In this document: positions 6,331-22,758 of the stretch, piece after piece | Layout: each line of letters opens with the position of its first letter | How positions within the stretch are numbered: position 1 is the stretch's first letter | Source: a virus | Reading direction: 5' to 3' (one strand) | Virus record (IMG/VR): IMGVR_UViG_3300017743_000018 | Span: 1-50,147 of that record | DNA length: 50,147 nt | Program-made: the position numbers and the translations under genes | Notes under the pieces: generated by a model | Told to the model about the DNA's origin: nothing | Databases searched by the model: none | What the model saw: only the letters and a program-made list of their open reading frames with translations

Positions 6331-7059
6331 ATGGCTACCTATGTTGTACTAGTTAATGAACTACTACGTAGACTCAACGAAGTTACACTTGATGTAGCAG
6401 GAGATGGCTTTGGGACAGTACGTAACGTTCAGGCTTTAGCTAAAGATGCAATAAATAACTCCATTAGAAATATCTTACAGACAGGTCAAGAATGGCCTTT
6501 TTTAAAAACTACTCAAACACAAACCCTAGTAGCAGGAACTAGACAATACGATTTTCCTGCTGATTATTCTAGGGCAGACTGGCAAACGTTTTATATTAAA
6601 AAACTTACGTCTGTTGACAATTCACCTATGTCTCTTCCTACAATTAGTTACGAAGAATATATTCAAAGATACAGACACTATGATGATACAGGGGATCAAA
6701 CAGGAATATCTGCACCCACCTTAATATATCAGACTGATGAGGCAAAGTTTGGGGTTACTCCTATCCCAGATCAAGCCTACGAAATAGAATATATTTATTA
6801 CAAATTTCCTGCAGACTTATCTGCTTTTAGTGACACAGCAATAATACCAGATAGATTTAAACACGTTCTTATTGATGGCGCTATGATGTACATGATGAGG
6901 TTTAGATCTAACGATCAAAGTGCTGCTGTCCATCAAGGAAACTTTGAATCAGGTATAAAGTCAATGAGAAGAATACTTGTTGATGAACCTTTAAGAGTAA
7001 GATCAACAGTAGTTGATAGATTAAACTCTTCTAATCAGGTTTTAGGTAGAGTTCTCTAA
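6331..7059 (+). CDS. Tail tubular protein A (T7 gp11-like)
   Basis: The protein has 242 residues. The N-terminal half contains VNELLRRLNEVTLDV, a helix with VQALAKDAINNSIRNIL, then QEWPFLKTTQTQTLVAGTRQYDFP, a pattern typical of podovirus tail tube A/adaptor proteins. They form the ring that joins the portal to the tail nozzle. The length is slightly above T7 gp11 (about 196 residues). The stop shares one base with the next start (TAATG), matching the usual gp11-gp12 pairing. Confidence 0.78.
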   Translation: MATYVVLVNELLRRLNEVTLDVAGDGFGTVRNVQALAKDAINNSIRNILQTGQEWPFLKTTQTQTLVAGTRQYDFPADYSRADWQTFYIKKLTSVDNSPMSLPTISYEEYIQRYRHYDDTGDQTGISAPTLIYQTDEAKFGVTPIPDQAYEIEYIYYKFPADLSAFSDTAIIPDRFKHVLIDGAMMYMMRFRSNDQSAAVHQGNFESGIKSMRRILVDEPLRVRSTVVDRLNSSNQVLGRVL

Positions 7060-8597
7060 TGCCAGAAAATTTAGGATCTTTTAAAGTCTTTGCTCAAGGA
7101 GGGCTGAATACTAGTAGAGATGTTCTTTCTCAGGGTGAGACTGCACCTGGCTCTGCAATTACACTTATTAATTATGAACCTGCTGTTACTGGTGGTTACA
7201 GAAAGATAAATGGTTTTTCTAATGACTATGGCACAGTAACAGGAACAGGTAACGTTTTAGGTGTAGCAGTAGTTGATGGAATTAACGATGGCATCTTAGC
7301 TGCTCGTAAACCCTCATCAGGTAATAACTACTTACATAAATGGAATAACTCTAGTTCAGCCTGGGATGCTGTAACTACTTCAGGTTCACCTACAATGGTA
7401 GGCGTAACTAAAGTTAGATTTACAAAGTTTAATTTTGGTACTCAAAAAGTTGTAATGACAGATGGTATTAATCCTGCAGCTACTTATGATGGTTCAACCT
7501 ATACTCAGATCACTCATGCTAGTGCTCCTACTGATCCAAAGTTTTCTGCTATATTCCAGAATCATTTATTTCTAGCAGGTGATCCTGCAGAAAAAACAAA
7601 CCTTTACTTTAGTGCACCATTAGCAGAAACAGACTTTTCTAGTGGCAATGGTGCAGGAGTAATAAACGTAGGTTTTCCTGTAGTAGCTATAAAAACTTTT
7701 AGAGATCAACTCTACATTTTTGGTACGACTCATATTAAAAGATTAGAAGGAACTACTGCAGCTAACTTTGTTTTAAAAGAAGTTACAGACGATCTTGGAT
7801 GTCTAGCCTCAGATAGTGTTATAGAAATTGGTGGTGACTTACTATTCTTATCACAAGATGGTCTACGTCCAATTTCAGGTACAGCAAAAATTGGTGACGT
7901 AAATTTAGAAACAGTATCAAAAAACATTCAATCTATTTTTACAGATATTGTTTTTAATATTGACCTTGAGGGTTTAAATGCAGTTGTAATTAGATCAAAA
8001 ACACAGTTCAGATATTTCTTTGCTGCTGCAAATTCTCAAGGTATCGTAGGTGGTTTTAGACAAACACCAAATGGACTACAGTTTGAGTATGCCCAGTTAC
8101 TAGGTATATCAGCTACTGCATCTGATAGTGGGTACATAGGTCAAAATGAATTTGTAATTCATGGAGATAGTACAGGTAAAGTTCACAGACAAGAACAGGG
8201 AAATGACTTTGATGGAACAGATATCCTTAGTGTTTATCAGACCCCTTTTCTTTATATGCAAGATCCAGAACAAAGAAAAATATTTTATACTGTAGCAACT
8301 TACTTACGTTCTGAGGGAGATAACGAGATTGTGATGTCTGTAGTATATGACTACGAAGATCCAAACTCGTTAAGTCCAACAAACTTTACTTTGAGTACTG
8401 AGGGTGCTGCAGCATACTACAATGAAGCTGCTTATAATAGTACAGCTATATTTGATGGTAATCCATCACCAGTACAACGTACAAATATTTCAGGTTCAGG
8501 TAAATCAGTTTCTTATAAATATGTTACAAATGATTCAAATGCTTCACACAGTATACAAGGCATAGTTGTGACGTTTGGCGTGGGGGATAGACTTTAA
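7059..8597 (+). CDS. Tail tubular protein B (T7 gp12-like nozzle)
   Basis: The 512-residue protein starts on a TAATG overlap with the tail tube A gene. It is beta-rich and nearly free of cysteine. The N-terminus (LGSFKVFAQGGLNTSRDVL ... NYEPAVTGGYRKINGFS) and a central IYIFG/TTHIKRLEG-like beta-propeller segment resemble nozzle proteins of marine podoviruses. T7 gp12 is longer (about 794 residues), so this is a short version. It should form the distal tail tube that contacts the fibres. Confidence 0.72.
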   Translation: MPENLGSFKVFAQGGLNTSRDVLSQGETAPGSAITLINYEPAVTGGYRKINGFSNDYGTVTGTGNVLGVAVVDGINDGILAARKPSSGNNYLHKWNNSSSAWDAVTTSGSPTMVGVTKVRFTKFNFGTQKVVMTDGINPAATYDGSTYTQITHASAPTDPKFSAIFQNHLFLAGDPAEKTNLYFSAPLAETDFSSGNGAGVINVGFPVVAIKTFRDQLYIFGTTHIKRLEGTTAANFVLKEVTDDLGCLASDSVIEIGGDLLFLSQDGLRPISGTAKIGDVNLETVSKNIQSIFTDIVFNIDLEGLNAVVIRSKTQFRYFFAAANSQGIVGGFRQTPNGLQFEYAQLLGISATASDSGYIGQNEFVIHGDSTGKVHRQEQGNDFDGTDILSVYQTPFLYMQDPEQRKIFYTVATYLRSEGDNEIVMSVVYDYEDPNSLSPTNFTLSTEGAAAYYNEAAYNSTAIFDGNPSPVQRTNISGSGKSVSYKYVTNDSNASHSIQGIVVTFGVGDRL

Positions 8598-11348
8598 ATG
8601 GCAGGTTATACAAGACAATCAGTAGCTGACATTATTGCTAATGCAGTCATTAAAGCTGCACCAGTAAACGCAGAATACAATGCTTTGCGAGATGCCTTTG
8701 CTGCAGCAACTGGACACAAACACGATGGTAGCACAGGAGAAGGTGCTAACGTTCCTCGTATAGCTGATGCTGATGCTCTAAACAGAGTTGTTATAGATAC
8801 CTCAAATAACAGAATTAGTTTTTTTACTGAAGTATCTTCTGCTGCTGTAGAACAAATTAGGCTAGAGGATGGTGTCCTAAAACCTGTATCTGATGATGAT
8901 ATAGATCTTGGTGCATCAGGAGCAGAGTTTAAAGATCTGTATATTGATGGTGTAGGTTACATTGATTCTGTTGTCATCACAGGTGGTACAATTGATGGTG
9001 CAGTAATTGGTGGTACAACTCCTGCAGCAGGTAGTTTTACAACACTAGCTGCTTCTAGTAACGCCACTGTAGGTGGTACTTTTGCTGTTACAGGTACATC
9101 TGCTCTTTCAGGCACAGCAACTATTACATCTGCTGACATTAACTCAGGTGCTATGGATAACACCACGATTGGTGCTAATACTGCAGCAGCAGGTACGTTT
9201 ACAGATCTTACAGCTTCAGGTACAACTACAATAACCACAGCAGACATTAATGGTGGAGCAATTGATGGTGTTACTATTGGTGGATCTTCTGCAGGTGCAG
9301 GTACATTTACAGATATAACAAGCACAGGATTAGCAACTCATGCTCAGGTCGATATTAATGGGGGTACTGTGGATGGCACAACAATTGGGGCTTCTGTTGC
9401 TGAAACAGGTAGCTTTACAACTGTTGCTACATCTGGTCAGGCGACACTGGCGACTGTTGATATTAATGGTGGTAATATTGATGGTACTATTATTGGGGCT
9501 AGTACACCTGCAGCCATAACAGGTACGACAGTTACAGGTACAAGTCTTGTAGGTGCATTAACAGGTAACGTTACAGGAAACGTAACAGGTAATGTTACTG
9601 GTGATGTAACAGGGGATTTAACAGGTAACGTAACTGCAGGTTCAGGCACATCATCATTTACTAATGTTACAGTCAATGGCACTCTAAATATGAATGCAGG
9701 TACAACTGCAACCATTACTAATCTTACAGCACCTAGTTCTGATTTAGACGCAGCAACAAAATTATATGTGGATACAGAGGTAGCTAACCTTGTAGACTCA
9801 GCACCTGGAACATTAAATACTTTAAACGAATTGGCTGCAGCATTGGGGGACGATGCAGATTTTGCCAACACAATTACAACAAGTATAGCAACCAAGTTGC
9901 CACTAGCAGGTGGTACAATGAGTGGTGCTATAGCTATGGCTACAGCTAAGATTACAGGGTTAGGTGATCCTAGTGCTGCACAAGATGCAGCCACAAAAAA
10001 TTATGCTGACTCTACATTTTTAAGTTTATCTGGTGGCACTATGACAGGTGCTATAGCTATGGGTAATTCAAAGATTACTGGACTAGCTACACCAACATCT
10101 GCAAATGATGCTGTGAACAAAACGTATGTCGACACGATAACAGGATCTTTGCAGTCTGCACAAACTAACGCAACTGCTGCTGCTACCTCTGCTACTAATG
10201 CTGCAACAAGTGAAACAAATGCTGCAAACAGTGCTACTGCTGCAGCTTCTAGTGCAACCTCTGCAGCAGCTTCATTTGACCTATTTGATGACAGATTCCT
10301 TGGTGCTAAGTCATCTGCTCCTAGTGTAGACAATGATGGTGATGCTCTTCAGGTAGGAACTCTTTATTTTAATACTACCTCAAACTCTATGCAGGTATAT
10401 GGTAATTCTGGTTTTACTGCTGCAGGTTCATCAGTAAATGGAACTTCAGATCGTAACTCCTACACAGCCACTGCAGGTCAAACAACGTTTGCAGCTACAT
10501 ACGATTCTGGTTACGTAGATGTATTCATGAATGGTTTGAAATTAAAAGATGGGACAGACTTTACAGCCACGTCAGGAACTACTATAGTACTTGCATCTGG
10601 TGCTACTGTTGGAGACATAATAGACATTGTTGCCTATGGTACATTTAGTCTAGCTGATCATTTATCACAAACACAATCTGATGCCAGATATTTACTAGAG
10701 TCAAACAACCTATCTGATTTAGATAGTGTATCTACAGCAAGAGCAAATCTTGGTGTAGCTATTGGGTCTGATGTACAGGCATACGATGTAGGTCTAACAT
10801 CTATTGCAGGTTTAAATACATCTGCAGATAAAATGATCTACACTACTGGTTCAGATTCATATACTATAACTAGTTTAACATCTTTTGGTAGATCTCTAAT
10901 TGATGACGCAGATGCTTCAGCAGCTAGAACAACTTTGGGTGTTGTAATAGGAACTAACGTACAAGCTTATGATGCGAACTTACCTACTTGGCCTTCAACT
11001 GTAGATGCTACAGAAGTAGGATACTTAAATAATCTAAGTGGTAATATTCAAAATCAGATTAACACTAAACAAAACGCATTTACTATAAATGTAGTTACCT
11101 CTAACACAACTGCAACAAAGGATAATCATTACTATTTAAATGGTGCAGGTATAACTTTAACCTTACCTAGTTCTCCTAGTGTAGGTGACGAAGTTAGAAT
11201 ATCTGAGGTAGCAAGTAGTACTGACAATATTATTGGTAGAGCAGGGTCTAACATTATGAGTGCTGCAGAGGATTTAACAATCGACACAGCTTACAAAGTT
11301 TTTCATTTAAGATACGTCAATGCCACTATTGGTTGGGCATTCTCATAA
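8598..11348 (+). CDS. Tail fibre / appendage protein with tandem repeats, 916 aa
   Basis: It starts immediately after the tail tube B stop. The N-terminus carries GHKHDGSTGEG (about residues 39-49), a His-rich motif common in marine phage fibres. About residues 125-320 are 36-residue repeats built on DINGGxxDGTTIG ... GTFT, followed by NVTG units. Next come LPLAGGTMSGAI-type repeats, an Ala/Thr/Asn-rich helical stretch (about 520-555), and FMNGLKLKDGTDFTATSG, widespread in cyanophage and pelagiphage fibres. I see no cysteine in all 916 residues, a sharp contrast with the next gene. It probably connects the tail to the receptor-binding parts. Confidence 0.8.
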   Translation: MAGYTRQSVADIIANAVIKAAPVNAEYNALRDAFAAATGHKHDGSTGEGANVPRIADADALNRVVIDTSNNRISFFTEVSSAAVEQIRLEDGVLKPVSDDDIDLGASGAEFKDLYIDGVGYIDSVVITGGTIDGAVIGGTTPAAGSFTTLAASSNATVGGTFAVTGTSALSGTATITSADINSGAMDNTTIGANTAAAGTFTDLTASGTTTITTADINGGAIDGVTIGGSSAGAGTFTDITSTGLATHAQVDINGGTVDGTTIGASVAETGSFTTVATSGQATLATVDINGGNIDGTIIGASTPAAITGTTVTGTSLVGALTGNVTGNVTGNVTGDVTGDLTGNVTAGSGTSSFTNVTVNGTLNMNAGTTATITNLTAPSSDLDAATKLYVDTEVANLVDSAPGTLNTLNELAAALGDDADFANTITTSIATKLPLAGGTMSGAIAMATAKITGLGDPSAAQDAATKNYADSTFLSLSGGTMTGAIAMGNSKITGLATPTSANDAVNKTYVDTITGSLQSAQTNATAAATSATNAATSETNAANSATAAASSATSAAASFDLFDDRFLGAKSSAPSVDNDGDALQVGTLYFNTTSNSMQVYGNSGFTAAGSSVNGTSDRNSYTATAGQTTFAATYDSGYVDVFMNGLKLKDGTDFTATSGTTIVLASGATVGDIIDIVAYGTFSLADHLSQTQSDARYLLESNNLSDLDSVSTARANLGVAIGSDVQAYDVGLTSIAGLNTSADKMIYTTGSDSYTITSLTSFGRSLIDDADASAARTTLGVVIGTNVQAYDANLPTWPSTVDATEVGYLNNLSGNIQNQINTKQNAFTINVVTSNTTATKDNHYYLNGAGITLTLPSSPSVGDEVRISEVASSTDNIIGRAGSNIMSAAEDLTIDTAYKVFHLRYVNATIGWAFS
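9132..9642 (+). repeat. In-gene tandem repeats of the tail fibre
   Basis: Four units of about 108 bp begin at 9132, 9240, 9348 and 9456, each encoding a 36-residue block starting (A/V)DIN(G/S)G. A run of 12-bp NVTG-type units follows (about 9556-9642). Such in-phase repeats predict a repetitive beta-structured shaft and are a natural substrate for unequal recombination that changes fibre length. Confidence 0.8.
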
Positions 11349-11363
11349 AGTAAGGGTACAAAT

Positions 11364-14300
11364 ATGGCTAATATATCAACATACTTTCCTTCAGGTGGCA
11401 GTGGAGCTTCAGGAGGAGGTATAGAAGGTACAAATAAATTTACCATTAAAGCAGGAGGTTCTTCTATACCTGCAGGTTGGCCTGTGTCTTATACTTTGGG
11501 TGATAAAACTATTGAAAAAACTCAAGGAGATCCCAACTCTCATACACTACCAACTTCTCATGGTGGGGTTAATGGTCATGGTATTATTCAAAACCCTGAT
11601 GTTTTTAATTGTAGTAACCATTGTTATTGTTGTTATTTACATTGTGCAACCTCTGCGTGTAATGCATATGATGTAACAATGAGACTTGGACCTTTAAACT
11701 GGTTTAGACTTTCTAAATCAGGTTTAATGGCTTTTAAAAATAAAGCTTGTGCAGACGCAAATAACTGTACAGATGGTCTTGCTATACCTTGTTATGGTAT
11801 GCAAAACATATGTTATGATGAAAGTAACTTATGTCTTACTGTTTTAAATACTGGTTTCGTAGTTGAGTGTGCTTGTACTAACAGTAATACAACAGTAAAT
11901 TATTCTAGTTTTTGTTGGTGTCAAACACCTTCAGTTCCTTTTCATAGCTATACTTCTGTTGAATCTACTAAGTGTTGTTTTTCAGGAGGAAACTGTTGTT
12001 GTATATGTTGTTTTGCAGCAAACCCACAACCAGGCTATCCTTTTGTTATAGAAAATCTTAGATGTTGTGCACAGATAGGTTCGTCTAATTCTCAATGTAG
12101 AGTTGTATCTCAATCAACTAAAAATCCTTATGAAGCCATAAATGGCACGATGGTATTTAAAAGTTGTGATTGTGCTTACTGGTATGTTGCTATGCCAGTG
12201 TTGAGAAAAGCTTGCCAAAATACAACAGGTAGTTGTTGTGCATTTCTTGGAAAAAAATGTTACATGGCTCCTAGAGAAATGTGTGCAGGTGGACAAAGAC
12301 ATGGTATGATGTTTTGGAAATTTACAAAGTGTTCAGGAAAAGATGAGCTTTGCACTAACCCAAGTATTACTTGTGATCTTGCTCATGGATGTTGGGGTTT
12401 AGGAAACCTAACTAAAAATGGTAACTTGATGTATGGCGTTAAGTCTAAAGCTGTTTCAAGTATCTGTGCTAACTGTGACTGTTTGTGTGTTCTTTTAGCA
12501 TGTGAGTTCTTTTTTGTAGAAGAGATGGATGGCAATGTATGTTTAAATCCTACTGCAGGTTGTATAGCTTCAACTAACAGAGAATTTAATTTTCAGTTTT
12601 GTAACGCATCTACTAACTCAAATTGTGGTACTATTTGTTCAGAAGGTGAAAGAAAACTATGGCCTATTACTGAAGATGCTAATGGTTGGGTTCTTTGGAC
12701 AGAGCCAGTTCAACACGTATACTTTAGAAAAGGTAGCAATGGTAGAGCAGAAAAGAAGCATTGTGGTTCTTTTATGAGGGTAGGAGCTTTTAAACCTACA
12801 GGACAGGGTGCAGGTGTAATGTCTACTAACATTGTGTGCATGTGCCATAATGCTGCTACTGATGGTCAATTTTGTTTAGGTCTTTACAATGGTGTAACTG
12901 GTGCATGTAGTGGTGTTTTTACTAGGTGTGCATCTTTAGATAGACACTTTGCAGGTGACTGTGCTGCAGGACAGAACTTTGGTGACTATATGGTTATGCA
13001 AGATGACCACCCTGTTCTGGTTAAAGCCCATGCAATGCAGTCTGATGGTGGCGTACCTAAATGTTTTTTCTGTTGTAGCAACAGTGGCGTTAGAAACTTA
13101 TGCTATGGGTTTCTTCCACAAGGAGCAGTTCATACAGGTTGCTACGACAGTGGGGAGTCAAAACAATTTTTGATACTATACCCCTTTTGGATAGGTGCAG
13201 AATGGACCAACTGTCAAACAAGGATTTGCTGTGGTTCTAATTTTCTAGGTGGCGAAAACGTTTGTTTTAAATTCTGTGTAAATAATTCAACAAATTGTAT
13301 TTATCTTACAGGTTGTACAGGAAGTGTAACTAACATTACTTGTTTTAATACTACTTCCTGTAGCTCACATGGTTTTCCTGGACAAACTTGTATAATGCCT
13401 GGTGATTTATTTAAACATGTAGAAAAAAATCTAAGAGCAAGTTTTGTTGAAACAATGCTTTATGAGGTCAGACCAAGACCTATAACAACTCACTATCAAC
13501 AAGGATACAATGTATCTTACTGTGGTCTTCTAATGCATGGTGATGTTTGTATTCCTAACCATGTATTACAATGTTGTGATTTTGCATGTTATAATTGTGG
13601 AGAGAGTAGAGGTGTAAATTGTTGCATGAGGACAATAGCAAGTCCTTTTGGTTGGCCTTCAAGTGTTTACTTGAACACAATGTCTCTTTGTCCTCAAAAC
13701 TATACTTTCTTAAGTTGCCAGTGTATTGAAGTTTGTTTTGGAGCTAACTGTCAAACTTGTGCAGGTCAAACCTTTAATATAAGTTATCACTGTACTTCTC
13801 CAACAACTAAAATAAGACAAAACTTCCCTAGTGTTTCAGGTGGTAATCCAACTGTATTTGGTAGAGGTGCTAACCCATGTTGTATGTGTGTAGGTACACC
13901 AATATTTCCTTACGTGTATCTCTGTGAAGACAGTTGCCTATGTCACCAAAATGCTTTCTGTGTTTATACAAGATGTAGGGCTACAGGTGCTGTTACAGCA
14001 TGTAACTTAGGTTGTTACTTTGGTACACTAACCTTTATGCCACAAGGGGCAGACGTTGTAGGTGCAAATTGTCATATCATATTCTGGAACTGTACATGTG
14101 CTGATGGCAGCACAAGATATGCAGTAGCAACTCAAGCAGCACAAAACAACAGTGCTACATGGATGGGATTTGCTTCAGAGGCAGGAAATGCAGGAGATGC
14201 AATATCTATTGCAACTCTTAATTCTGGGGCTGCACCATTACATGCTTGTTTAGGTGGCTCTTGTTTCTTGGGTAATGTTAGTGGTACTTGCTGTTTTAGA

Positions 14301-14495
14301 TTACAGTGTCCTGTTGCAACAATACAAAACAATTGTTGTCCTACTATCTTATGTTGTTTTGCAGTTACTAACCCTCAAGTTGTATGTGGCTCATCAAAAG
14401 CTATGGGAGCATTCAGAAGTTGTGTTTGTATATCTTTTAACCCTGCAGATAACTGCTGTAAATTATATATTACCCCACAAGTAGACGTTTGTTAA
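11364..14495 (+). CDS. Giant cysteine-rich tail protein 1, 1043 aa
   Basis: By hand count about 111 of 1043 residues are Cys (roughly 10.6 percent), mostly TGT codons. The first 80 residues are Cys-free, with a Gly/Ser-rich start (SGGSGASGGG) and a beta-rich region. Cys pairs and i,i+2 patterns then run to the end, for example NHCYCCYLHC, GNCCCICCF and CQCIEVCFGANCQTC. Asn, Thr, Ser and aromatic residues are abundant, as in beta-structured spikes. It lies between fibre genes with a normal GGAG ribosome site. I recognise no enzyme or named domain. It is probably a receptor-binding or shielding component with extensive disulfides or bound metal; that is inference. Confidence 0.8.
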   Translation: MANISTYFPSGGSGASGGGIEGTNKFTIKAGGSSIPAGWPVSYTLGDKTIEKTQGDPNSHTLPTSHGGVNGHGIIQNPDVFNCSNHCYCCYLHCATSACNAYDVTMRLGPLNWFRLSKSGLMAFKNKACADANNCTDGLAIPCYGMQNICYDESNLCLTVLNTGFVVECACTNSNTTVNYSSFCWCQTPSVPFHSYTSVESTKCCFSGGNCCCICCFAANPQPGYPFVIENLRCCAQIGSSNSQCRVVSQSTKNPYEAINGTMVFKSCDCAYWYVAMPVLRKACQNTTGSCCAFLGKKCYMAPREMCAGGQRHGMMFWKFTKCSGKDELCTNPSITCDLAHGCWGLGNLTKNGNLMYGVKSKAVSSICANCDCLCVLLACEFFFVEEMDGNVCLNPTAGCIASTNREFNFQFCNASTNSNCGTICSEGERKLWPITEDANGWVLWTEPVQHVYFRKGSNGRAEKKHCGSFMRVGAFKPTGQGAGVMSTNIVCMCHNAATDGQFCLGLYNGVTGACSGVFTRCASLDRHFAGDCAAGQNFGDYMVMQDDHPVLVKAHAMQSDGGVPKCFFCCSNSGVRNLCYGFLPQGAVHTGCYDSGESKQFLILYPFWIGAEWTNCQTRICCGSNFLGGENVCFKFCVNNSTNCIYLTGCTGSVTNITCFNTTSCSSHGFPGQTCIMPGDLFKHVEKNLRASFVETMLYEVRPRPITTHYQQGYNVSYCGLLMHGDVCIPNHVLQCCDFACYNCGESRGVNCCMRTIASPFGWPSSVYLNTMSLCPQNYTFLSCQCIEVCFGANCQTCAGQTFNISYHCTSPTTKIRQNFPSVSGGNPTVFGRGANPCCMCVGTPIFPYVYLCEDSCLCHQNAFCVYTRCRATGAVTACNLGCYFGTLTFMPQGADVVGANCHIIFWNCTCADGSTRYAVATQAAQNNSATWMGFASEAGNAGDAISIATLNSGAAPLHACLGGSCFLGNVSGTCCFRLQCPVATIQNNCCPTILCCFAVTNPQVVCGSSKAMGAFRSCVCISFNPADNCCKLYITPQVDVC

Positions 14496-14507
14496 TAGGA
14501 GAAACAA

Positions 14508-15011
14508 ATGAGTAAAGCAAGAGTATTAGCAGATTTAGTTGCAGCAGGAGGTGAGTTAGCTGATGGTGCAATTAGTGTATCAGAAATTGGTGATCTTACT
14601 GCTACTGCTGCTGAAATAAATAAGTTAGATGGAGTTACTGCAACAACTGCTGAGTTAAATAAACTAGCAGGACTTACAGCAAGTACATCTGAATTAAATG
14701 GAGTAGCAGGAGTAAACTCTTCTGTGCAAACACAAATAGATGCAAAAGCTCCTCTTGCTTCTCCTACCTTTACAGGTACAGGTACAATACCAACTGCAGT
14801 CGTAACTACACTTAGACTGGGTGGCTCTGATGTAACATCTAATGTTACTGGGCTTGGTACTGCATCTCAACTTAATGTTGGTACGAGTGCCAACAATATA
14901 CCACAACTTAATGGATCAGCACAGCTACCTGCTGTAGATGGATCTCTACTAACTGGCATTAGTGCAGGTACTAGTGTTGGTAAAGCATACTATTTAGCTA
15001 CAGCAATATAA
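14508..15011 (+). CDS. Short fibre protein with AEINKLDGVTA-type repeats, 167 aa
   Basis: This 167-residue protein contains ATAAEINKLDGVT, TTAELNKLAGLT and STSELNGVAGV in tandem (about residues 28-65), then SPTFTGTGTIP. These repeats are common in marine phage tail fibres. It has no cysteine although Cys-rich genes lie on both sides. The ATG follows an AGGAGAAACAA ribosome site. It may be an adaptor or trimerising shaft that anchors the Cys-rich partner encoded next. Confidence 0.75.
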   Translation: MSKARVLADLVAAGGELADGAISVSEIGDLTATAAEINKLDGVTATTAELNKLAGLTASTSELNGVAGVNSSVQTQIDAKAPLASPTFTGTGTIPTAVVTTLRLGGSDVTSNVTGLGTASQLNVGTSANNIPQLNGSAQLPAVDGSLLTGISAGTSVGKAYYLATAI

Positions 15012-15026
15012 AAGAGGTAAGATAAA

Positions 15027-16934
15027 ATGTCAGGAACTTTAGGACAGGCAGTGATAGGAGCACACGAGTCTTGTAAAATATATACGAACTCTAGTGGCAA
15101 TCCTGCTTCAATAACAATTCATGCTCAGGCAACAAGTGTTGATAACAATGCTTGCTTAAGCTTAAAGTATTCAGCTACAGATGCTTGTGTTTTGTGCAGC
15201 ACTACAGTAAGTACTTTAGATGCTCCACCTACAAGTACAGGCAATATTTCAGTAAACAGTGGTGGAACTGCTCTTTGTGGGTTTACTAAGACTGAATCTG
15301 TCTGTGCTCTTGATAGGTCTTTTGCTTGGTGTGATGCAACAGATGGTGCATTATACAAAAGAAATAACTGTGTTTGTCTTTCATGTTGGTGTGCTATAGG
15401 GGCAGGTTTTGTTCAGCCCTCTAAAGCCTCTCATTTTGGTGCAGGTATACAGTGTAACCCAAAAAACAATATGCGTTGGTCTGGTATAAGTCAACAAATG
15501 CAAATGAACCATCCCTCCTTTATAGCAGGAGCAGGGGAAGCTTGGGAAAAATCTAGTTTTAATAACTATTTTGTTCCTTGTTGTGCAGTAGGGTGTCACA
15601 CTTGTGCTGCCTGTGGTGCTTTTGTAAGATTTGGGCAGGAAACTGTTTGCTGTTGTCATGCGTTTTGTGGTAGTAGGGATTGTAAAAGAAGATTTTTCTA
15701 TTGTGGTTTTATTTGTCATACTTCTTGTATGGAAGCAAATAACTGCTATGGATGTAGTCACGCATGGTATTCTCAAGACATATGGTCAAATGCAACACCT
15801 ATTTTTGATATGGGTACTTCTGCTGCAGGAATGCATAGGCCAAGTCAATGTCAAGAATTTAGGGTGAGATTTATAAATGACCTTACTACTGGTTCATCAG
15901 CAATTGTAGGTGGTAGTCGTTGTTCAGGTCAACAAGTTAGTCAACAGTGTGACAGAGCACACTACCACGAGGAGTGCAACTGCAATGGTTGTTGCTGTTG
16001 TGCAGATTGGCAAATTGGTACACATGCCCATCATAAGTATGTGATGGCAGGATGTGACGTAGCTTTCTTTCCTGCTTCTTATACAACAGGTCCAACAGCA
16101 ATTGTACAGTACCCTAACTCTAGTACTCAAGGTCATTCAGATGAATGCCAACTAACCAGGTTCTGTAGTATGAAGCAGTTTTGTTGTTTTGGACAGGATG
16201 CCAACTCATGTTGTAGTTTTTATCCTATGGTAGTTGCAATGAGTTCTTCAACAGTAAAGTGGTTATGGTACAATCCATATACTGACTGCAACTATTTTGA
16301 AGTTATGGGTACTTCTGCTGCACAAAATGCAACTTCACCTGCAGATGGAATATACTCTATTGACAGTGAATATTCACCTAATGGAGCAGGGTGTATTCAT
16401 GGGGGAACATATTCTAGTTGTTGTAAACAATGTAAAACAATGGCAGATTGGATTACTGCAGGGTTTATTAAATGTGTTTCAGGAACTCCTACAGCTTGGA
16501 GTGAAAAATCATGCTACCTTGAAGTTTCAAGTCAACCTCAATTAGTTGCAAAATGTTGTTTTGCTATATGGAAACAATGTTTTACTTTTGGAGATATTTC
16601 AAGTGGTTGGAATGGTTGTATGATACAGTATAGATCTCCAGATCTAGTTACTTGGGAAAAAGTTACTACTGATCTTGTTGAAATAAATAATGTAGGCTCA
16701 GGAGATGCACTATGTACTAACATAATCCAAAACAATGGTGCAGACTTTTTCTTTAAAACTAATCATTACTTTAACGCAAGTAACTGTATTAATAATACAG
16801 GCACTCTTGAGTTTAAAACTTCAGCAAACAGAATAGAAAGAACAGGTATTGTACTTTCAAATTCTGATAAACTTTATGTCTCAAACAATAGTGGTACTCC
16901 TATAGCAGTACAAGTATGGGGGTATGACGAGTAA
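15027..16934 (+). CDS. Cysteine-rich tail protein 2, 635 aa
   Basis: About 56 of 635 residues are Cys (roughly 8.8 percent), densest between residues 180 and 260 and near residue 325 (NCNGCCCCADW). The last 80 residues have almost no Cys and end in a beta-sandwich-like segment (LYVSNNSGTPIAVQVWGYD). MGTSAAG and MGTSAAQ occur twice (about residues 271 and 429), hinting at an internal duplication. The stop shares a base with the next start (TAATG). It belongs with the two other Cys-rich genes by composition and place. The function is unknown; a virion surface component is likely. Confidence 0.78.
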   Translation: MSGTLGQAVIGAHESCKIYTNSSGNPASITIHAQATSVDNNACLSLKYSATDACVLCSTTVSTLDAPPTSTGNISVNSGGTALCGFTKTESVCALDRSFAWCDATDGALYKRNNCVCLSCWCAIGAGFVQPSKASHFGAGIQCNPKNNMRWSGISQQMQMNHPSFIAGAGEAWEKSSFNNYFVPCCAVGCHTCAACGAFVRFGQETVCCCHAFCGSRDCKRRFFYCGFICHTSCMEANNCYGCSHAWYSQDIWSNATPIFDMGTSAAGMHRPSQCQEFRVRFINDLTTGSSAIVGGSRCSGQQVSQQCDRAHYHEECNCNGCCCCADWQIGTHAHHKYVMAGCDVAFFPASYTTGPTAIVQYPNSSTQGHSDECQLTRFCSMKQFCCFGQDANSCCSFYPMVVAMSSSTVKWLWYNPYTDCNYFEVMGTSAAQNATSPADGIYSIDSEYSPNGAGCIHGGTYSSCCKQCKTMADWITAGFIKCVSGTPTAWSEKSCYLEVSSQPQLVAKCCFAIWKQCFTFGDISSGWNGCMIQYRSPDLVTWEKVTTDLVEINNVGSGDALCTNIIQNNGADFFFKTNHYFNASNCINNTGTLEFKTSANRIERTGIVLSNSDKLYVSNNSGTPIAVQVWGYDE

Positions 16935-17653
16935 TGTCTAGGTTTATTAAACTAGCAGGTCAAGCATCAGGAGGGGCTACAGTCCTTCCTGAGAATGCTT
17001 GTTTTACCACAGTAACATCTAAAGGATATAATTACTGTGACACTATTCAAGAAAGATCTGCATGTGTCTCTCCAGAAGTAGTGATAATGAATTGTCCAGA
17101 CTTTACACCTACAACTTCAAATTTATTACTGTCACATAATTTTTTTAATTATTGTTGTATTTGTATGGACATGACTTTGGGTGGAACAGAAGGAACTAGT
17201 GGTTGTATGCCCTGTGTAAGACTTGTTTTTGATGGTGTACTAGAAGATTGTCAGCATGTTTATAGAACTATAAGAGTTTGTGGTGGGAATAACTATATGA
17301 CTTGTTGTCACAATTGTTTGTTTGCAGGAATATGTCAGTTTCAAAGAGGTGGTTCTTTTAATATAGCTTTTTTTCCAATAACAACTACTAGAAATGCAAC
17401 TAGTGCCACTGGTCCTACAGTAGGATTTAATGCCCAAGTAGCTCCAACTGCTGAAGGAAACACAGGGTCTGATACCTGTAGAATGATGTGGGGTTGTGGG
17501 TGGTTAAATAATTGTTTTCTTTGCTGTAGACCTCAATGGTGTGTGTTTAATGGTATTTGTATTACAGGTGGTTGTTTAAGTTGTAACTATTGTGGTATTC
17601 AAAGAAGCTTTAGAATAACAGGGCATCCAAAGCAAACAGAGGAGATGACATAA
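16934..17653 (+). CDS. Cysteine-rich tail protein 3, 239 aa
   Basis: About 25 of 239 residues are Cys (roughly 10.5 percent), clustered at residues 70-95, 115-135 and 180-225 (WGCGWLNNCFLCCRPQWC). A Cys-poor beta-rich stretch (about 138-180, SFNIAFFPITTTRNATS) lies between. It is coupled to the preceding gene (TAATG) and followed without gap by the assembly chaperone gene. The tail-adhesin position suggests a distal tip. No family is recognised. Confidence 0.76.
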   Translation: MSRFIKLAGQASGGATVLPENACFTTVTSKGYNYCDTIQERSACVSPEVVIMNCPDFTPTTSNLLLSHNFFNYCCICMDMTLGGTEGTSGCMPCVRLVFDGVLEDCQHVYRTIRVCGGNNYMTCCHNCLFAGICQFQRGGSFNIAFFPITTTRNATSATGPTVGFNAQVAPTAEGNTGSDTCRMMWGCGWLNNCFLCCRPQWCVFNGICITGGCLSCNYCGIQRSFRITGHPKQTEEMT

Positions 17654-17938
17654 ATGTGGGAACAAGTTATAACTTCTTCTAAAACTTATATGAGAGAAAT
17701 TCCTGATCCAACAGAAGAAGAAATTGCAGCAGAAGCTGCTCACTTATTACAGGTTCAAAGTGATGCAGGTAGAGAGAAAAGAGATAATCTTCTAGTAGAG
17801 TCTGACTGGACTCAGGTTGTGGATTCTCCTTTAACAGACGAGAAGAAAGCTGAATGGGTTACTTATAGGGCAGCTTTACGAAATTTGCCTACAGACGAGG
17901 ATTGGCCTGAACCAACTTGGCCTACACAACCCTCTTGA
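17654..17938 (+). CDS. Tail fibre assembly chaperone-like protein, 94 aa
   Basis: The pattern RDNLLVESDWTQVVDSPL, then EKKAEWVTYRAALRNLP and a final WPEPTWP, matches the phage tail assembly chaperone family with DWTQ...AW..YR..LR (Pfam PF16778 type). Such proteins help fold or assemble the adhesin encoded just upstream, often as a fused or separate C-terminal domain. Its place right after the third Cys-rich gene therefore supports that protein being an adhesin. The stop codon overlaps the -35 box of the next promoter. Confidence 0.75.
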   Translation: MWEQVITSSKTYMREIPDPTEEEIAAEAAHLLQVQSDAGREKRDNLLVESDWTQVVDSPLTDEKKAEWVTYRAALRNLPTDEDWPEPTWPTQPS

Positions 17939-18009: not shown

Positions 18010-18936
18010 GTGAAAAAACTATTTTTTATTGATGGGGGCGCAGGTCGTGCTATTGCATCTATACCTGCTTTCCTAAAGTATGTAAAGAAACATGAAGATT
18101 TTGCTATACTAGTACATGGATGGGATACTTTATACTGGGGTATTCCTGAACTACAAGACAAAGTATTTAACCCTGAACAAAAAGGTATCTTTGATCATGT
18201 AGTAAAACATGCTGAAGAAATAATATCACCTGAACCATATCGAGTTCCAGGATATTTTAAACAAGAACTATCTTTGGCAGAAGCCTTTGACGTTCTTATC
18301 AACAATACTAATGATCATTCTGATCTACAAGATCCTATCTTGAAGACTTCTAAAGCAGAAGAGTTAAATGCTGTGGGGATGATTGTTGATACTAAGAACC
18401 AACAAAAGAAGAATCATACTATTGTTATTCAACCTTTTGGACGTTCTGCACAAAAACACCCTGTTGGTGCTATCGTAGATGAGTCATCTCGTTCTCTTGA
18501 TCCTCAAGCATATTTAAAGTTGGTCAAGAAATTATCTGCAAAATACAATCTTGTGTTAATGGCAGAGCAACAGTTTTATATGGAAGAGGATACATATACA
18601 GTAAAACCACAAGCTGATCTCAGAATGTGGACTGCTTTTATAGATGCTGCTGATTATTTTATAGGAGTAGATTCTGTAGGTCAGCACATGGCAAAGGCAC
18701 TAGGTAAACCTGGTACTGTAATTGTTGGCTCTACTTTTGCAATCAACACAACTTATCCAAATTATTTTAACATTATTGAAAAGGAGGATGCTAAGAAATA
18801 CTCACCTATACGTATATCTGGTCTTGAGGGTCACTTAGCTGATCGTATGAACGAAAGCCTCATGGACTTTAATGATGAAGAAATAAATAAAATTTATGCA
18901 AACATCGTAAAAGATATAGAAAAGAAGGTGAAGTAA
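18010..18936 (+). CDS. Glycosyltransferase family 9-like (heptosyltransferase-like)
   Basis: The 308-residue protein starts at GTG with a weak AAGAAG ribosome site. The N-terminal Rossmann half begins KKLFFIDGGAGRAIASIPAF, and the C-terminal half contains ADYFIGVDSVGQHMAKALG with GTVIVGST after it. This is the GT9 signature in which the DS.G.H.A.ALG loop binds the nucleotide of the donor. GT9 enzymes transfer L,D-heptose from ADP-heptose to lipopolysaccharide core. The adjacent ADP-heptose genes make that donor likely here. The acceptor is unknown and could be host LPS or a phage protein. Confidence 0.7.
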   Translation: MKKLFFIDGGAGRAIASIPAFLKYVKKHEDFAILVHGWDTLYWGIPELQDKVFNPEQKGIFDHVVKHAEEIISPEPYRVPGYFKQELSLAEAFDVLINNTNDHSDLQDPILKTSKAEELNAVGMIVDTKNQQKKNHTIVIQPFGRSAQKHPVGAIVDESSRSLDPQAYLKLVKKLSAKYNLVLMAEQQFYMEEDTYTVKPQADLRMWTAFIDAADYFIGVDSVGQHMAKALGKPGTVIVGSTFAINTTYPNYFNIIEKEDAKKYSPIRISGLEGHLADRMNESLMDFNDEEINKIYANIVKDIEKKVK

Positions 18937-20648
18937 TGAATATCCTAGCAATCAATCCAGGGCATAATGGTTCTGCTGCTTTAGTAGTTGATGGTGAACT
19001 AAAGTTTTATATAGAGGAAGAAAGACTTTCTCGTAGTAAGTACGATGGTAATCCTTTTGTAGGAATAGTAGAAGCACTAAAGTATGGTGTAGACATTTTG
19101 GTTCTTGGTGGTACTTCAGAACAATTTCCACAGTTACCTTGGACAGGAGAAGATCCTTACTCTGGTTTTTTAAGGAAGTTTAACCCTAACCTGCAGATAG
19201 TAAACGTTGGAGGTGCTCATCACGTAGGTCATGCAGCAAATGCTTTTTATAACTCAGGTTTTGAACAGGCTGCAGCAGTTATTGTAGATGGGTCTGGTTC
19301 TCGTAGAGAGATAGAGGCTGATGAAAACTTTAAGAATCCAGGTTTTGAAACAGAGTCTATCTTTAACTGTGGCTATGAAGAGGGAATAAAACCTGTATTT
19401 ACTTCTTATGGAGGTAACTACGATACCCAACGTATAATAACTGAAGATGTAGAAATGGATAGTGCTATAACAATAGTTAAAGCATATGAGGCTGTCTCAG
19501 ACTATCTTGGTTTTGGTTACATTGAAGCAGGTAAGACAATGGGTCTTGCACCATATGGTAAAAGCAACGAGTTTATTCCTAGTCTGTTTTATAATGGTAG
19601 AGGTAACAAGAACGTATTTATTCCTAACTACCCTGCAGGTGCTTACGTAGATCACTCACGCCACCCTTTACTAGAACTAAAAGAAGACCCTAAAGGTTGG
19701 CATAGTGACCACACAAAGGTAACAGATGCAGCAAAAGATTTAGCTTGGGCTGTGCAAGATGAGACACAAACTCTTGTAGGAGACTTAATCGAAAAGTCTG
19801 TAGATAAAACAGGACACAAAAACATTGTTATATCAGGTGGTTATGGCCTTAACTGTGTAGCCAACTACTACTACAAGGAAAGGTTTCCTGATCTGAATAT
19901 CTTTGTTGACCCTATCTCTCACGATGGTGGTACAGCAGTAGGGTTAGCCAAACTAATTCACTACGATAAGAACAAAGAGGATAAGACTATACGTCCTATG
20001 ACTACTTTGTATCTTGGTCCTGAACGAAAAGAAGATTATGACTTTGGTGACATAGAGACTAAAGATGTAAAGACTGCTGATGTAGCAAAGCTAATAGCAG
20101 ACAAAAACATTGTAGCTCTATTCCAAGGACGATCTGAGGCAGGACCACGAGCACTGGGTAATCGTTCTATACTGTATGATCCCACAGATCCTAATGGTAA
20201 AGACTTTGTAAACACAGTCAAAGGAAGAGAGTGGTTCAGACCTTTTGCAGGTTCAATGCTACAAGAAAACTTTGAAGAGTGGTTTGAAACTCGTGGTCTA
20301 GAAGAGTCACCATACATGATGTATGCTATGGACTTTAAGACTGACAAGCATGGTGAAGTTCCTGCAATCACGCACGTAGATGGTACATGTCGTATTCAGA
20401 CTGTGACTAAAGAACAGAACCCTAGCTATTATTCCCTGATAAAAGAGTTTGATAAAATAACTGGTGTTCCTATTCTGTTTAACACAAGTTTTAATCTAGC
20501 AGGTCAGCCTCTAGTTGAGACTTTGCAAGATGCTATGGAGACTGTAAAGAACTCAGACATAAACTATCTATACTTACCAGACGTAGGTAAGCTAGTACAT
20601 TATCCTTATAATGATAGTCTTGTTGAGGATATGGAGGAAGCTGCTTAA
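18936..20648 (+). CDS. O-carbamoyltransferase, NodU/CmcH family
   Basis: The 570-residue protein has the full two-domain layout. The N-terminal ASKHA-like domain opens with NILAINPGHNGSAALVVDGE and carries the metal-binding HHVGHAANAFY (about residues 94-104). ISGGYGLNCVANY lies near residue 290. The C-terminal YrdC-like domain holds FQGRSEAGPRALGNRSIL and WFRPFAGSM, which bind the carbamoyl-adenylate intermediate. Enzymes of this family use carbamoyl phosphate and ATP to carbamoylate sugar hydroxyls. Carbamoyl heptose is known in the Pseudomonas LPS core, so heptose is a plausible substrate. The start overlaps the GT9 stop by one base. Confidence 0.88.
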   Translation: MNILAINPGHNGSAALVVDGELKFYIEEERLSRSKYDGNPFVGIVEALKYGVDILVLGGTSEQFPQLPWTGEDPYSGFLRKFNPNLQIVNVGGAHHVGHAANAFYNSGFEQAAAVIVDGSGSRREIEADENFKNPGFETESIFNCGYEEGIKPVFTSYGGNYDTQRIITEDVEMDSAITIVKAYEAVSDYLGFGYIEAGKTMGLAPYGKSNEFIPSLFYNGRGNKNVFIPNYPAGAYVDHSRHPLLELKEDPKGWHSDHTKVTDAAKDLAWAVQDETQTLVGDLIEKSVDKTGHKNIVISGGYGLNCVANYYYKERFPDLNIFVDPISHDGGTAVGLAKLIHYDKNKEDKTIRPMTTLYLGPERKEDYDFGDIETKDVKTADVAKLIADKNIVALFQGRSEAGPRALGNRSILYDPTDPNGKDFVNTVKGREWFRPFAGSMLQENFEEWFETRGLEESPYMMYAMDFKTDKHGEVPAITHVDGTCRIQTVTKEQNPSYYSLIKEFDKITGVPILFNTSFNLAGQPLVETLQDAMETVKNSDINYLYLPDVGKLVHYPYNDSLVEDMEEAA

Positions 20649-21289
20649 GGCAACCTATGAGCAAACTGAAGAAGATCATCAAACACTTTGGTCTTCTTTC
20701 TAAGTTTCTCTTTTGAGAATTTCTTGAGGTCTTCTTCAGTTTCTAATCCATGACCAGTACGAACAAGAATAGGTCTAGCACCTATACGTTCTGCAGCTTT
20801 AAGATCTGTCATCTTGTCACCAACATAAAAACCATTTTGTTTAAACCTATGCTTATCTAAAAATATTTCTTTCTCTGCTCTGTGAAACATACCTAAATTA
20901 GGTTTAGCAAAGCAATCACATTTCAGAGATGTTTCAGAATAGAACAAACCATCAATGGAGTAGATACCTGCATTACCAAAGACTTCCATCATACGTTGAT
21001 GAACAGCCTCTACTTGGTCATGTGTCTGCTCCTTTTTTATAATACCCCCCTGATTGGTTAGTATAACTAGTTTATATCCTTTGAGTCTAATCATACGAAT
21101 AGCTTCAAGAGAACCAGGGATAGGCTCCCAGTCGTTAGGATCAGAGATGTAACCCTTGTTTACATTTATTACACCATCACGATCCAAACCAACAATTGAC
21201 TTAGGAAATACTTTAGGCCAATCACTAGGAACATTTTGCTGTTGAATCTGTTGTGGGTCTTGTTCTATTATATGTTTAAATCTAGACAT
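20645..21289 (-). CDS. gmhB: HAD phosphatase, D-glycero-D-manno-heptose 1,7-bisphosphate phosphatase-like
   Basis: HAD motif I is LDRDGVIN (nucleophile and acid/base Asp), motif II is VILTNQGG, and motifs III/IV are CFAKPNLGMFHRA and FYVGDKMTDLKAAERIGA. The overall length (214 residues) and the NKGYISDPNDWEPIPGSLEAI segment match GmhB, which removes the 1-phosphate of heptose bisphosphate. The zinc loop is reduced: only one C-x-C (KCDC) is visible where GmhB usually has C-x-H plus C-x-C. It is the only gene of the cassette on the minus strand, overlapping the carbamoyltransferase end by 4 bases and divergent from the next gene across just 15 bp. Its N-terminus is Gln-rich. Confidence 0.78.
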   Translation of the reverse strand: MSRFKHIIEQDPQQIQQQNVPSDWPKVFPKSIVGLDRDGVINVNKGYISDPNDWEPIPGSLEAIRMIRLKGYKLVILTNQGGIIKKEQTHDQVEAVHQRMMEVFGNAGIYSIDGLFYSETSLKCDCFAKPNLGMFHRAEKEIFLDKHRFKQNGFYVGDKMTDLKAAERIGARPILVRTGHGLETEEDLKKFSKEKLRKKTKVFDDLLQFAHRLP

Positions 21290-21304
21290 GGTGTAATTTT
21301 AATT

Positions 21305-21715
21305 ATGAAGAAGATATTTGTCAATGGAGCATTTGATGTAGTGCATTCAGGACACCTTGATCTGCTTGATTTTGCTAAGGGTTTAGGCACTCACCTGCTC
21401 GTAGCTATTGACACAGATAGGCGTATTGAGTATAACAAGGGGGAAGGAAGACCTTTCAATAAACTTAAGAATAGAAAACATTTAATTGGTTCGTTGAAAC
21501 CTGTTACAAGCGTAGTAACATTTGACACAGACAATGATCTTCTTGCAATTCTTGAAAGGTACAGACCAGACATAATGGTTAAGGGTTCTGATTGGAGAGG
21601 AAAAAAGGTTATAGGGGAGGAGTACTGTAACAAGGTAGTATTCTACGAGAGAACCAATGGTCAATCAACAACAAAAACAATCGAAAATTTTATTACTAGG
21701 CGACAGTTGCTATGA
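21305..21715 (+). CDS. Heptose-1-phosphate adenylyltransferase (HldE C-terminal domain type)
   Basis: I take the ATG at 21305 because KKIFVNGAFDVVHSGHLDLL, the nucleotidyltransferase HxGH motif region, must be at the N-terminus; this gives 136 residues. Further signatures are NRKHLIGSLKPVTSVVTFD, PDIMVKGSDW and the terminal GQSTTKTIENF. In Escherichia coli this domain is the C-terminal half of HldE/RfaE and makes ADP-heptose from heptose 1-phosphate and ATP. Here it is a separate protein encoded before the kinase. Other cytidylyltransferase-fold enzymes are possible but less likely given the neighbours. Confidence 0.75.
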   Translation: MKKIFVNGAFDVVHSGHLDLLDFAKGLGTHLLVAIDTDRRIEYNKGEGRPFNKLKNRKHLIGSLKPVTSVVTFDTDNDLLAILERYRPDIMVKGSDWRGKKVIGEEYCNKVVFYERTNGQSTTKTIENFITRRQLL

Positions 21716-22412
21716 TGAATATCACACAGGAACTGTAACTCGAATAAGTCCTGAAGCTCCTGTACCTGTCTTTGATCTTACATCTACTGTTGTAAAAAGA
21801 GGTATGGCCTATAACGTCTACAATAACCTTGTTAACTTAGGTGCAAGAGTAGATGTCATAACAGACTACAAAGAGCGTAAGCACAGGTACGTAGAAGAAA
21901 AGACTGGTCAACAACTGCTTAGAGTAGACGAACAGATTAAGACTGAGCAGGTGGACACAGCAGACCAAAGTCTAGATGGTTACTCTGCAATTGTTATATC
22001 AGACTATAACAAAGGTTTTGTAGAAGAGGGTGACATAAAAAAACTTAGGGCAAAGTTTGATGGTCCTATTTTTGTAGATACAAAGAAAAAAGATTTAGCT
22101 CAGTTTGATGGGTGTTTTGTAAAGATAAATCAGTACGAATACGAAGAGGCTGAAAGCCTTACTAACGAATTAATAGTTACCTATGGCTCAAAGAAAGTCG
22201 AATATAAAAATAGGACTTACCTACCTCCAAGTGTAGAAACTCATGATGTGTGTGGTGCAGGAGATACTTTTCTCGCAGGTCTTGTATTCAAGTATTTAGA
22301 TACTTATAGTATAGACCAGGCTATAAAGTTTGCAATGCAAGCAGCAGCCATAACTGTGCAACACAGGGGCGTATATGCCCCCAAAATAGAAGAGGTAGTT
22401 CATGAGACTTGA
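21657..22412 (+). CDS. PfkB-family heptose 7-phosphate kinase (HldE N-terminal domain type)
   Basis: The 251-residue protein has KILLLGDSCYDEYHTGTVTRISPEAP at the start (GD..D and the RISPEAPVPV stretch typical of HldE kinase) and the PfkB anion-hole motif DVCGAGDTFLAGL near residue 200. It would phosphorylate D-glycero-D-manno-heptose 7-phosphate at C1. It is shorter than HldE kinase domains (about 310 residues), with a compact middle. Its first 20 codons overlap the end of the adenylyltransferase gene in another frame. Both stretches are conserved, so the overlap appears genuinely dual-coding. Confidence 0.75.
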   Translation: MVNQQQKQSKILLLGDSCYDEYHTGTVTRISPEAPVPVFDLTSTVVKRGMAYNVYNNLVNLGARVDVITDYKERKHRYVEEKTGQQLLRVDEQIKTEQVDTADQSLDGYSAIVISDYNKGFVEEGDIKKLRAKFDGPIFVDTKKKDLAQFDGCFVKINQYEYEEAESLTNELIVTYGSKKVEYKNRTYLPPSVETHDVCGAGDTFLAGLVFKYLDTYSIDQAIKFAMQAAAITVQHRGVYAPKIEEVVHET

Positions 22413-22758
22413 AGGTTTTGTTAAAAAAGGTTGGGGTTCAGAACTAATATGGGTAACAAATGACAAGTATTGTAGTAAGTTTTTATCTTTTAATTCTGGT
22501 GCTAAATTCTCTATGCACTTCCACAAGGATAAGGAAGAGAGTTGGTACGTTTTATCAGGCAAGTTTGAAGTGCATTGGATTGACACAGAAGACGCCACTG
22601 TTAACATTGAGTCCCTGGGTGAGGGCGATGCCTGGACGAATGCGACTCTTGTACCTCATCAGATCATTTGCTTAGAAGAGGGTACAATCCTAGAAGTATC
22701 TACCCCTGACTCTGTAGAAGATAATTACAGAGTAGGTAAGGGTGACAGTCAAGCATGA
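22402..22758 (+). CDS. Cupin-domain protein
   Basis: A single double-stranded beta-helix of 118 residues. The metal-binding pattern is MHFHKDKEESWYVLSGKFEV (two His and a Glu) with VPHQI as the second cupin motif. Similar small cupins resemble the mannose-6-phosphate isomerase type II domain and accompany nucleotide-sugar genes in marine phages. It overlaps the kinase by 11 bases and the epimerase by 4. It might supply the missing isomerase or epimerase step, but the sequence alone does not show which. Confidence 0.7.
   Translation: MRLEGFVKKGWGSELIWVTNDKYCSKFLSFNSGAKFSMHFHKDKEESWYVLSGKFEVHWIDTEDATVNIESLGEGDAWTNATLVPHQIICLEEGTILEVSTPDSVEDNYRVGKGDSQA

Follow-up and report, generated by a model that had tools for sequence, protein, structure and literature searches.

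What purpose might be served by filling the proteins of a phage tail with cysteine? The question is raised by a viral DNA stretch of 50,147 nucleotides (IMG/VR record IMGVR_UViG_3300017743_000018, positions 1 to 50,147, hereafter the window), in which three genes between positions 11364 and 17653 encode proteins with about one cysteine (Cys) in ten residues. The major capsid protein of this phage is 78.5% identical to that of Roseobacter phage CRP-9, and the phage is therefore of the HMO-2011 type. The answer proposed here draws on comparison with related phages, in which Cys richness recurs in the same genomic slot and co-occurs with a neighbouring gene cassette at 18010–23531, encoding a glycosyltransferase (GT) and heptose enzyme homologs, which an earlier sequence-only reading of the window had overlooked. 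The best single explanation, to which we give about an even chance, is that the adhesin Cys are acceptors for a sugar attached by the phage, an S-linked and probably carbamoylated heptose.

The three proteins are Cys-rich adhesin 1 (11364–14495; 1043 residues, 111 Cys, 10.6%), adhesin 2 (15027–16934; 635 residues, 56 Cys, 8.8%), and adhesin 3 (16934–17653; 239 residues, 25 Cys, 10.5%), all encoded, like the other genes described between 8598 and 23531 except one, on the given strand. These counts had been made by hand in the sequence-only reading, and a recount of the open reading frames (ORFs) reproduced them exactly, together with the absence of Cys from two neighbours: the 916-residue tail fibre that precedes the trio (8598–11348), whose conserved N-terminus is common to CRP-9 and HMO-2011, and the 167-residue tail-fibre-like spacer protein between adhesins 1 and 2 (14508–15011). 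The other virion genes of the window mostly have zero or one Cys. The gene after the trio, earlier described as chaperone-like, indeed encodes a Cys-free tail assembly chaperone of 94 residues (17654–17938) that matches PF16778 (Phage_tail_APC, E = 6.5e-18). With this chaperone and the tail fibres around it, the trio lies in a tail fibre/adhesin assembly region, as had been assumed, in a slot that is variable among relatives. Profile searches of the three proteins against Pfam and PHROG gave no Pfam match and no convincing PHROG match, in keeping with the earlier impression that they stand outside any known tail family, and the AlphaFold model of adhesin 2, built with nine homologs, has a confidence (pLDDT) of 39 and is uninformative, with small beta domains modelled at the termini and the middle left unmodelled. 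Regarding codons, TGT is the main Cys codon, as had been remarked (169 TGT and 23 TGC among the 192). This is the same as the phage-wide bias towards codons ending in T (NNT share 0.87 for Phe, 0.86 for Ser, and 0.88 for Cys), so that the codon choice carries no signal and no recoding needs to be invoked. Recoding of TGT was ruled out, as the window has no tRNA and the TGT/TGC ratio follows the general bias.

Relatives were collected by anchoring on the conserved gene at 18010–18936, which yielded 80 loci, and most of these have one to three ORFs of 5–13% Cys directly upstream. After removal of duplicates, the homologous slot holds 94 distinct ORFs with at least 5% Cys, and these form 47 clusters with no pairwise BLAST similarity at E ≤ 1e-3 over half of the shorter length. 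Their mean Cys content is 9.7% versus 0.59% in the background ORFs of the same loci, a 16-fold excess that is not attributable to chance, and Lys, Glu, and Asp are depleted in them. The exchange of proteins within the slot can be followed from locus to locus: in L001 and L002, adhesin 1 is retained with ∼90% identity, and the adhesin 2 slot holds proteins of 825 and 878 residues with 8.4–9.6% Cys; in L006 adhesin 1 is replaced by an unrelated Gly-rich, Cys-rich protein of 287 residues; and the adhesin 2 slot of relatives is occupied by unrelated Cys-rich proteins. Cys richness is a recurrent state of this slot, and not an oddity of one protein or one phage.

The co-occurrence with the GT was seen in three tests. 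In the one anchored on the GT, 79 loci extend for at least 3 kb upstream, and at 66 of them an ORF of at least 5% Cys lies within 10 kb 5' of the GT gene, at a median gap of 547 bp; this holds for 65 of the 73 loci at which a carbamoyltransferase was detected versus one of the six at which it was not. When the anchor was placed outside the cassette, on the 512-residue gene at 7059, and records with at least 8 kb downstream were considered, Cys-rich proteins were found in all four GT-bearing records and in none of the eight without the GT (p = 0.002). No Cys-rich tail ORF is seen in the eight cassette-less relatives that were examined, CRP-9, HMO-2011, and CRP-1 among them; small Cys-rich ORFs in cassette-less relatives are endonuclease-like or antisense. 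The remaining test was not selected on the GT: it sampled one fibre fold, with ∼18-residue repeats and an S74-like chaperone domain in those fibres whose C-terminus is included, through DNA patterns with either Cys or Ser at one repeat position. The Cys content of the fibre repeats is bimodal, and the GT family profile was found in 43 of 80 Cys-rich fibre records versus none of 47 Cys-poor records of the same fold (p = 8e-12), a comparison in which the pattern sets differ in phage types, the records are interrelated, and many are fragments. Records of at least 20 kb give 36 of 54 versus 0 of 14 (p = 4e-6), and strong GT matches only give 23 of 80 versus 0 of 47; record G027, with a Cys-poor and a Cys-rich fibre and a weak GT match, was counted as Cys-rich. 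An unbiased scan with short DNA patterns of Cys clusters was judged to lack the necessary specificity.

Profile and fold both point to a GT9-fold enzyme as the product of the gene at 18010–18936 (phrog_8954), the proposed adhesin heptosyltransferase. It matches PF01075 at E = 1e-4, just above the gathering cut-off, and its AlphaFold model, built with 53 sequences, has a pLDDT of 92. The closest folds in the PDB are 3tov (Z 23.4), WaaF (Z 21.2), TibC (Z 20.9), and WaaC (Z 19.3), and TibC superposes on the model with a root-mean-square deviation of 2.8 Å over 265 residues. By its GT-B fold and GT9 C-terminal donor motif, the enzyme belongs to the GT9 heptosyltransferase superfamily. It shares with WaaC, WaaF, and WaaQ the fold and this C-terminal motif (hhalign probability 92.7), and differs from them in being linked to a tail and in its N-terminal region, where the phage GTs lack the Asp of the WaaC/WaaF-type GD motif: in a low-stringency profile alignment, an invariant Arg13 (64 of 64 aligned phage GTs) stands at the position of the WaaF Asp. 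This replacement may fit a non-hydroxyl acceptor and is a lead, not a proof. The window GT has no Cys and its listed homologs have one to four, so that a TibC-type four-Cys iron finger is not present. When the GT profile was run against PDB sequences, only chance matches came back.

The rest of the cassette would provide the sugar. Profile matches identify a NodU/NolO-type O-carbamoyltransferase (18936–20648), followed by a GmhB-like heptose-1,7-bisphosphate 7-phosphatase (HAD-IIIA; 20645–21289, on the opposite strand), an HldE C-domain-like heptose-1-phosphate adenylyltransferase (21236–21715; rfaE_dom_II, E = 1.1e-29, with the true start within the ORF), an HldE N-domain-like heptose-7-phosphate kinase (21657–22412; rfaE_dom_I, PfkB, E = 8e-36), a cupin (22402–22758), and an HldD-like ADP-heptose 6-epimerase (22755–23531; E = 7e-64). 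Homologs of these four ADP-heptose enzymes are thus present, and each time the best NCBIfam model is the heptose one. All cassette members were detected at 33 of the 64 loci with enough downstream sequence, and all except GmhB at nine more.

The same arrangement occurs in other lineages. A cassette of this kind is present in the unrelated T4-like cyanophages P-SSM2, S-SSM7, S-CAM1, S-CAM3, and Sf-FS3, where two or three hypothetical proteins of 8.0–11.6% Cys are encoded immediately 5' of the cassette. Distant relatives of the GT (26–28% identity) are found in N4-like Vibrio phages and in Aeromonas phage HJ05, where the adjoining tail proteins are moderately enriched in Cys (41 in 925 residues, 41 in 1756, and 23 in 559). 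The GT is the only cassette member detected in these Vibrio and Aeromonas phages, a state that fits with their hosts, which make ADP-heptose themselves. In two of the N4-like Vibrio phages (L101, 15745–18519; L103, 10224–15494), many Cys of the tail proteins adjoining the distant GT9 lie in Ala-rich, apparently alpha-helical stalk repeats. In addition, Pelagibacter phage HTVC111P, a cultured SAR11 phage and possible laboratory model, has an S74-type fibre with 12 Cys in 811 residues and, as the very next gene, a diverged GT family member (gp52-gp53; L194, 2647–5963; E = 3.6e-82 after iteration).

In the mechanism that we propose, the trio would be host-recognition adhesins, and the phage's own glycosylation cassette would, within the host cell, attach sugars to their surface Cys. 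The GmhB-, HldE-, and HldD-like enzymes would make ADP-heptose, the GT9-fold enzyme would join the heptose in S-linkage to those thiols that the Cys of freshly synthesized adhesins expose, and the carbamoyltransferase would cap the sugar. Such a tail tip would be densely glycosylated, with the sugars shielding or tuning receptor binding and preventing thiol cross-linking. That this is a widespread viral system, in which unrelated phages, equipped with a GT9-fold enzyme, a carbamoyltransferase, and in many cases an ADP-heptose supply of their own, place S-linked carbamoylated heptoses on scores of surface Cys of each adhesin, we consider a possibility falling somewhat short of even.

Where the Cys sit bears on this proposal and on its rivals. 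In four GT-linked repeat fibres with 161 repeat units, 136 of 139 Cys occupy six variable positions, which from their variability and polarity are presumably surface-exposed, and none of the 322 residues at two variable hydrophobic positions is a Cys. The number of Cys per unit is under-dispersed (variance 0.48 versus 0.73), there are 28 within-unit pairs versus 47.9 expected (permutation p < 0.0002), and successive repeats share a Cys position 12 times versus 18.7 expected. Such spacing would suit bulky substituents, and it is the opposite of the pairing or clustering that disulfides or metal sites need. It thereby weakens, for the repeat fibres, the idea raised in the sequence-only reading that the Cys bind metal or form disulfides, here once released into oxygenated seawater, in which case the cassette would separately modify the host envelope. 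This idea has more in its favour in the other adhesins. Compared with local shuffles, Cys-rich adhesins have CC at 1.28 times and CxC at 1.24 times the expected frequency, a mild enrichment that is found in the non-fibre adhesins, and adhesin 2 has one CCCC run; the CC, CxC, and CCC runs described earlier are mostly what a content of 10% Cys yields. Moreover, the comparison of relatives suggested in the sequence-only reading did find Cys to be the best conserved residue in homologous adhesin pairs (0.74); where it is substituted, Thr, Asn, and Ser are the usual replacements, and Leu, Met, Trp, or Pro are rare ones. Against disulfides or metal stand the absence of a CxxC excess (1.06 times), on which account zinc-finger and similar metal motifs were rejected, the odd Cys counts of many adhesins (111, 25, 79, 73, and 31), and the co-occurrence with the GT in all three tests, which they leave unexplained. 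Taken together, we regard this alternative as unlikely.

The other alternatives keep a role for sugars and differ in where these are placed. The cassette could glycosylate the adhesins on Ser, Thr, or other residues, with the Cys having another, linked role; TibC, a close fold match of the phage GT, modifies Ser (PMC4358343), and the adhesins contain much Ser, Thr, Asn, and Gly. Yet Ser (1.23 times) and Thr (1.02 times) are not markedly enriched next to the 16 times of Cys, and the Cys-poor fibres of this fold, many of them with Ser at the corresponding repeat position, have no GT, which leaves this alternative less probable still than disulfides or metal. Scarcely more than a slender chance, a little below that of Ser or Thr acceptors, goes to remodelling of the host lipopolysaccharide (LPS) for superinfection exclusion, with the cassette simply carried along beside the adhesins in a tail island. 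Such islands are frequent in tail regions, and similar cyanophage genes were assigned in one report to heptose-related LPS synthesis (PMC7378029); however, the LPS of Synechococcus WH8102 and CC9311 reportedly contains neither heptose nor 3-deoxy-D-manno-oct-2-ulosonic acid (KDO) (PMC4515613). Cyanophage Sf-FS3, whose host is listed as WH8102, nevertheless has the heptose genes, which counts for heptose on the virion rather than in the LPS, and LPS remodelling does not account for the way Cys content follows the GT, both in unrelated adhesins and within one fibre fold. Finally, another Cys modification, such as oxidation to sulfinic acid by the cupin, lipidation, or persulfide formation, with the GT serving a second step, seems very improbable. 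In the cyanophage cassettes, the homolog of the window cupin is annotated 'cysteine dioxygenase' and travels with the other cassette genes, but the window cupin matches sugar-type cupins (WbuC, mannose-6-phosphate isomerase) rather than cysteine dioxygenase, and L069, L071, and L073 have Cys-rich adhesins with the GT and carbamoyltransferase and no detected cupin.

Glycosylation on Cys with heptose has to be set against several findings of its own. The heptose enzymes of the cassette, with E values from 1e-29 to 7e-64, all fall below the NCBIfam trusted cut-offs, GmhB included, and no GmhA was found in the profile search of the window cassette. To our knowledge, S-linkage by a GT9 enzyme is undescribed. 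The conservation of Cys between homologs fits disulfides too, and the window proteins have no repeats and a mild CC/CxC enrichment, unlike the spaced Cys of the fibres. L057 and L068 have the GT and carbamoyltransferase without a Cys-rich ORF in nearly the whole record, and L065/66 and L067 have the GT with neither the carbamoyltransferase nor a Cys-rich ORF; L084 was an apparent exception, resolved by a Cys-rich fibre (L236) in the same record. Comparison of the active sites of the exceptional GTs with the rest gave no separating difference. Conversely, 37 of the 80 Cys-rich fibre records, some longer than 60 kb, gave no match to this GT family; among the larger ones, PF01075 was found in none of 16, and GT2 genes above the cut-off in 4 of 16 versus 0 of 16 Cys-poor records. 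The GT family is therefore associated with Cys richness, and neither strictly necessary nor sufficient for it.

Known systems resemble the proposed one in part. The bacterial autotransporter heptosyltransferase systems, TibC and AAH with the adhesins TibA and AIDA-I, likewise combine a GT9-fold heptosyltransferase with a large repetitive adhesin adjacent as candidate substrate and an expected ADP-heptose donor, and TibC hyperglycosylates adhesins by heptosylation (PMC4358343). By contrast, the phage GT, of ∼308 residues, is phage-encoded, has R13 at the site of the WaaF GD Asp, would act on Cys instead of Ser, and is joined in its cassette by a carbamoyltransferase and a donor pathway. That a sugar can be placed on the sulfur of Cys is known in bacteria from the glycocin S-glycosyltransferases SunS, PalS, and ThuS (PMC6405829), and the sublancin genes lie on a prophage (PMC6391423). 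Their substrates are unrelated to those proposed here, being small secreted bacteriocins that receive one or two sugars, whereas on the phage side the enzyme is of GT9 fold and the candidate substrates are tail adhesins with ∼20–145 Cys per chain. Other phages, such as mycobacteriophages, encode glycosyltransferases that act on virion proteins. We know of no Cys linkage in mycobacteriophage virion glycosylation, nor of Cys-rich acceptor proteins reported there.

In the open-access literature searched, neither Cys-rich phage adhesins nor a cyanophage combination of heptose and carbamoyltransferase genes is described, and within it the comparative pattern is new. Among known tail-protein families and phage modification systems, none was found that combines these features. 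If Cys glycosylation is correct, marine phages of an abundant class cover their receptor-binding proteins with sugar by way of Cys, a type of linkage for which a few bacteriocins are the main known examples. This would alter the reading of phage host range, adsorption, and tail-fibre evolution from sequence, add a new S-glycosyltransferase family for glycoengineering, explain the heptose genes of some cyanophages despite the reported heptose-free LPS of Synechococcus, and offer a sequence signature for finding the system, namely a Cys-saturated adhesin beside a GT9. Even with another chemistry, the co-occurrence of Cys content and glycosyltransferase across unrelated adhesins demands an explanation, and it is testable in cultured phages, namely S-CAM1, P-SSM2, S-SSM7, and Sf-FS3.

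A few further observations concern neighbouring genes and individual records. At L057 and L068, the identity of the acceptor would be informative. Cys-enriched repeat fibres with several GT2 genes and no GT9 are found in records G095 (L210 and L249; 327 kb), G080 (L199; 74 kb), and G140 (L252; 63 kb). Near some cassettes (L004, 1855–3420; L068, L069, L071, L072, and L077; L105) there are genes for sulfotransferase-like proteins and 2-oxoglutarate (2OG)-Fe(II) oxygenases, possibly for further decoration of the sugar or of the protein. In the window itself, the conserved structural protein at 7059–8597 has the PHROG label 'amidase' (phrog_5107), which is doubtful; its counterpart in the relative ctYwJ313 is annotated as a phage stabilization protein.

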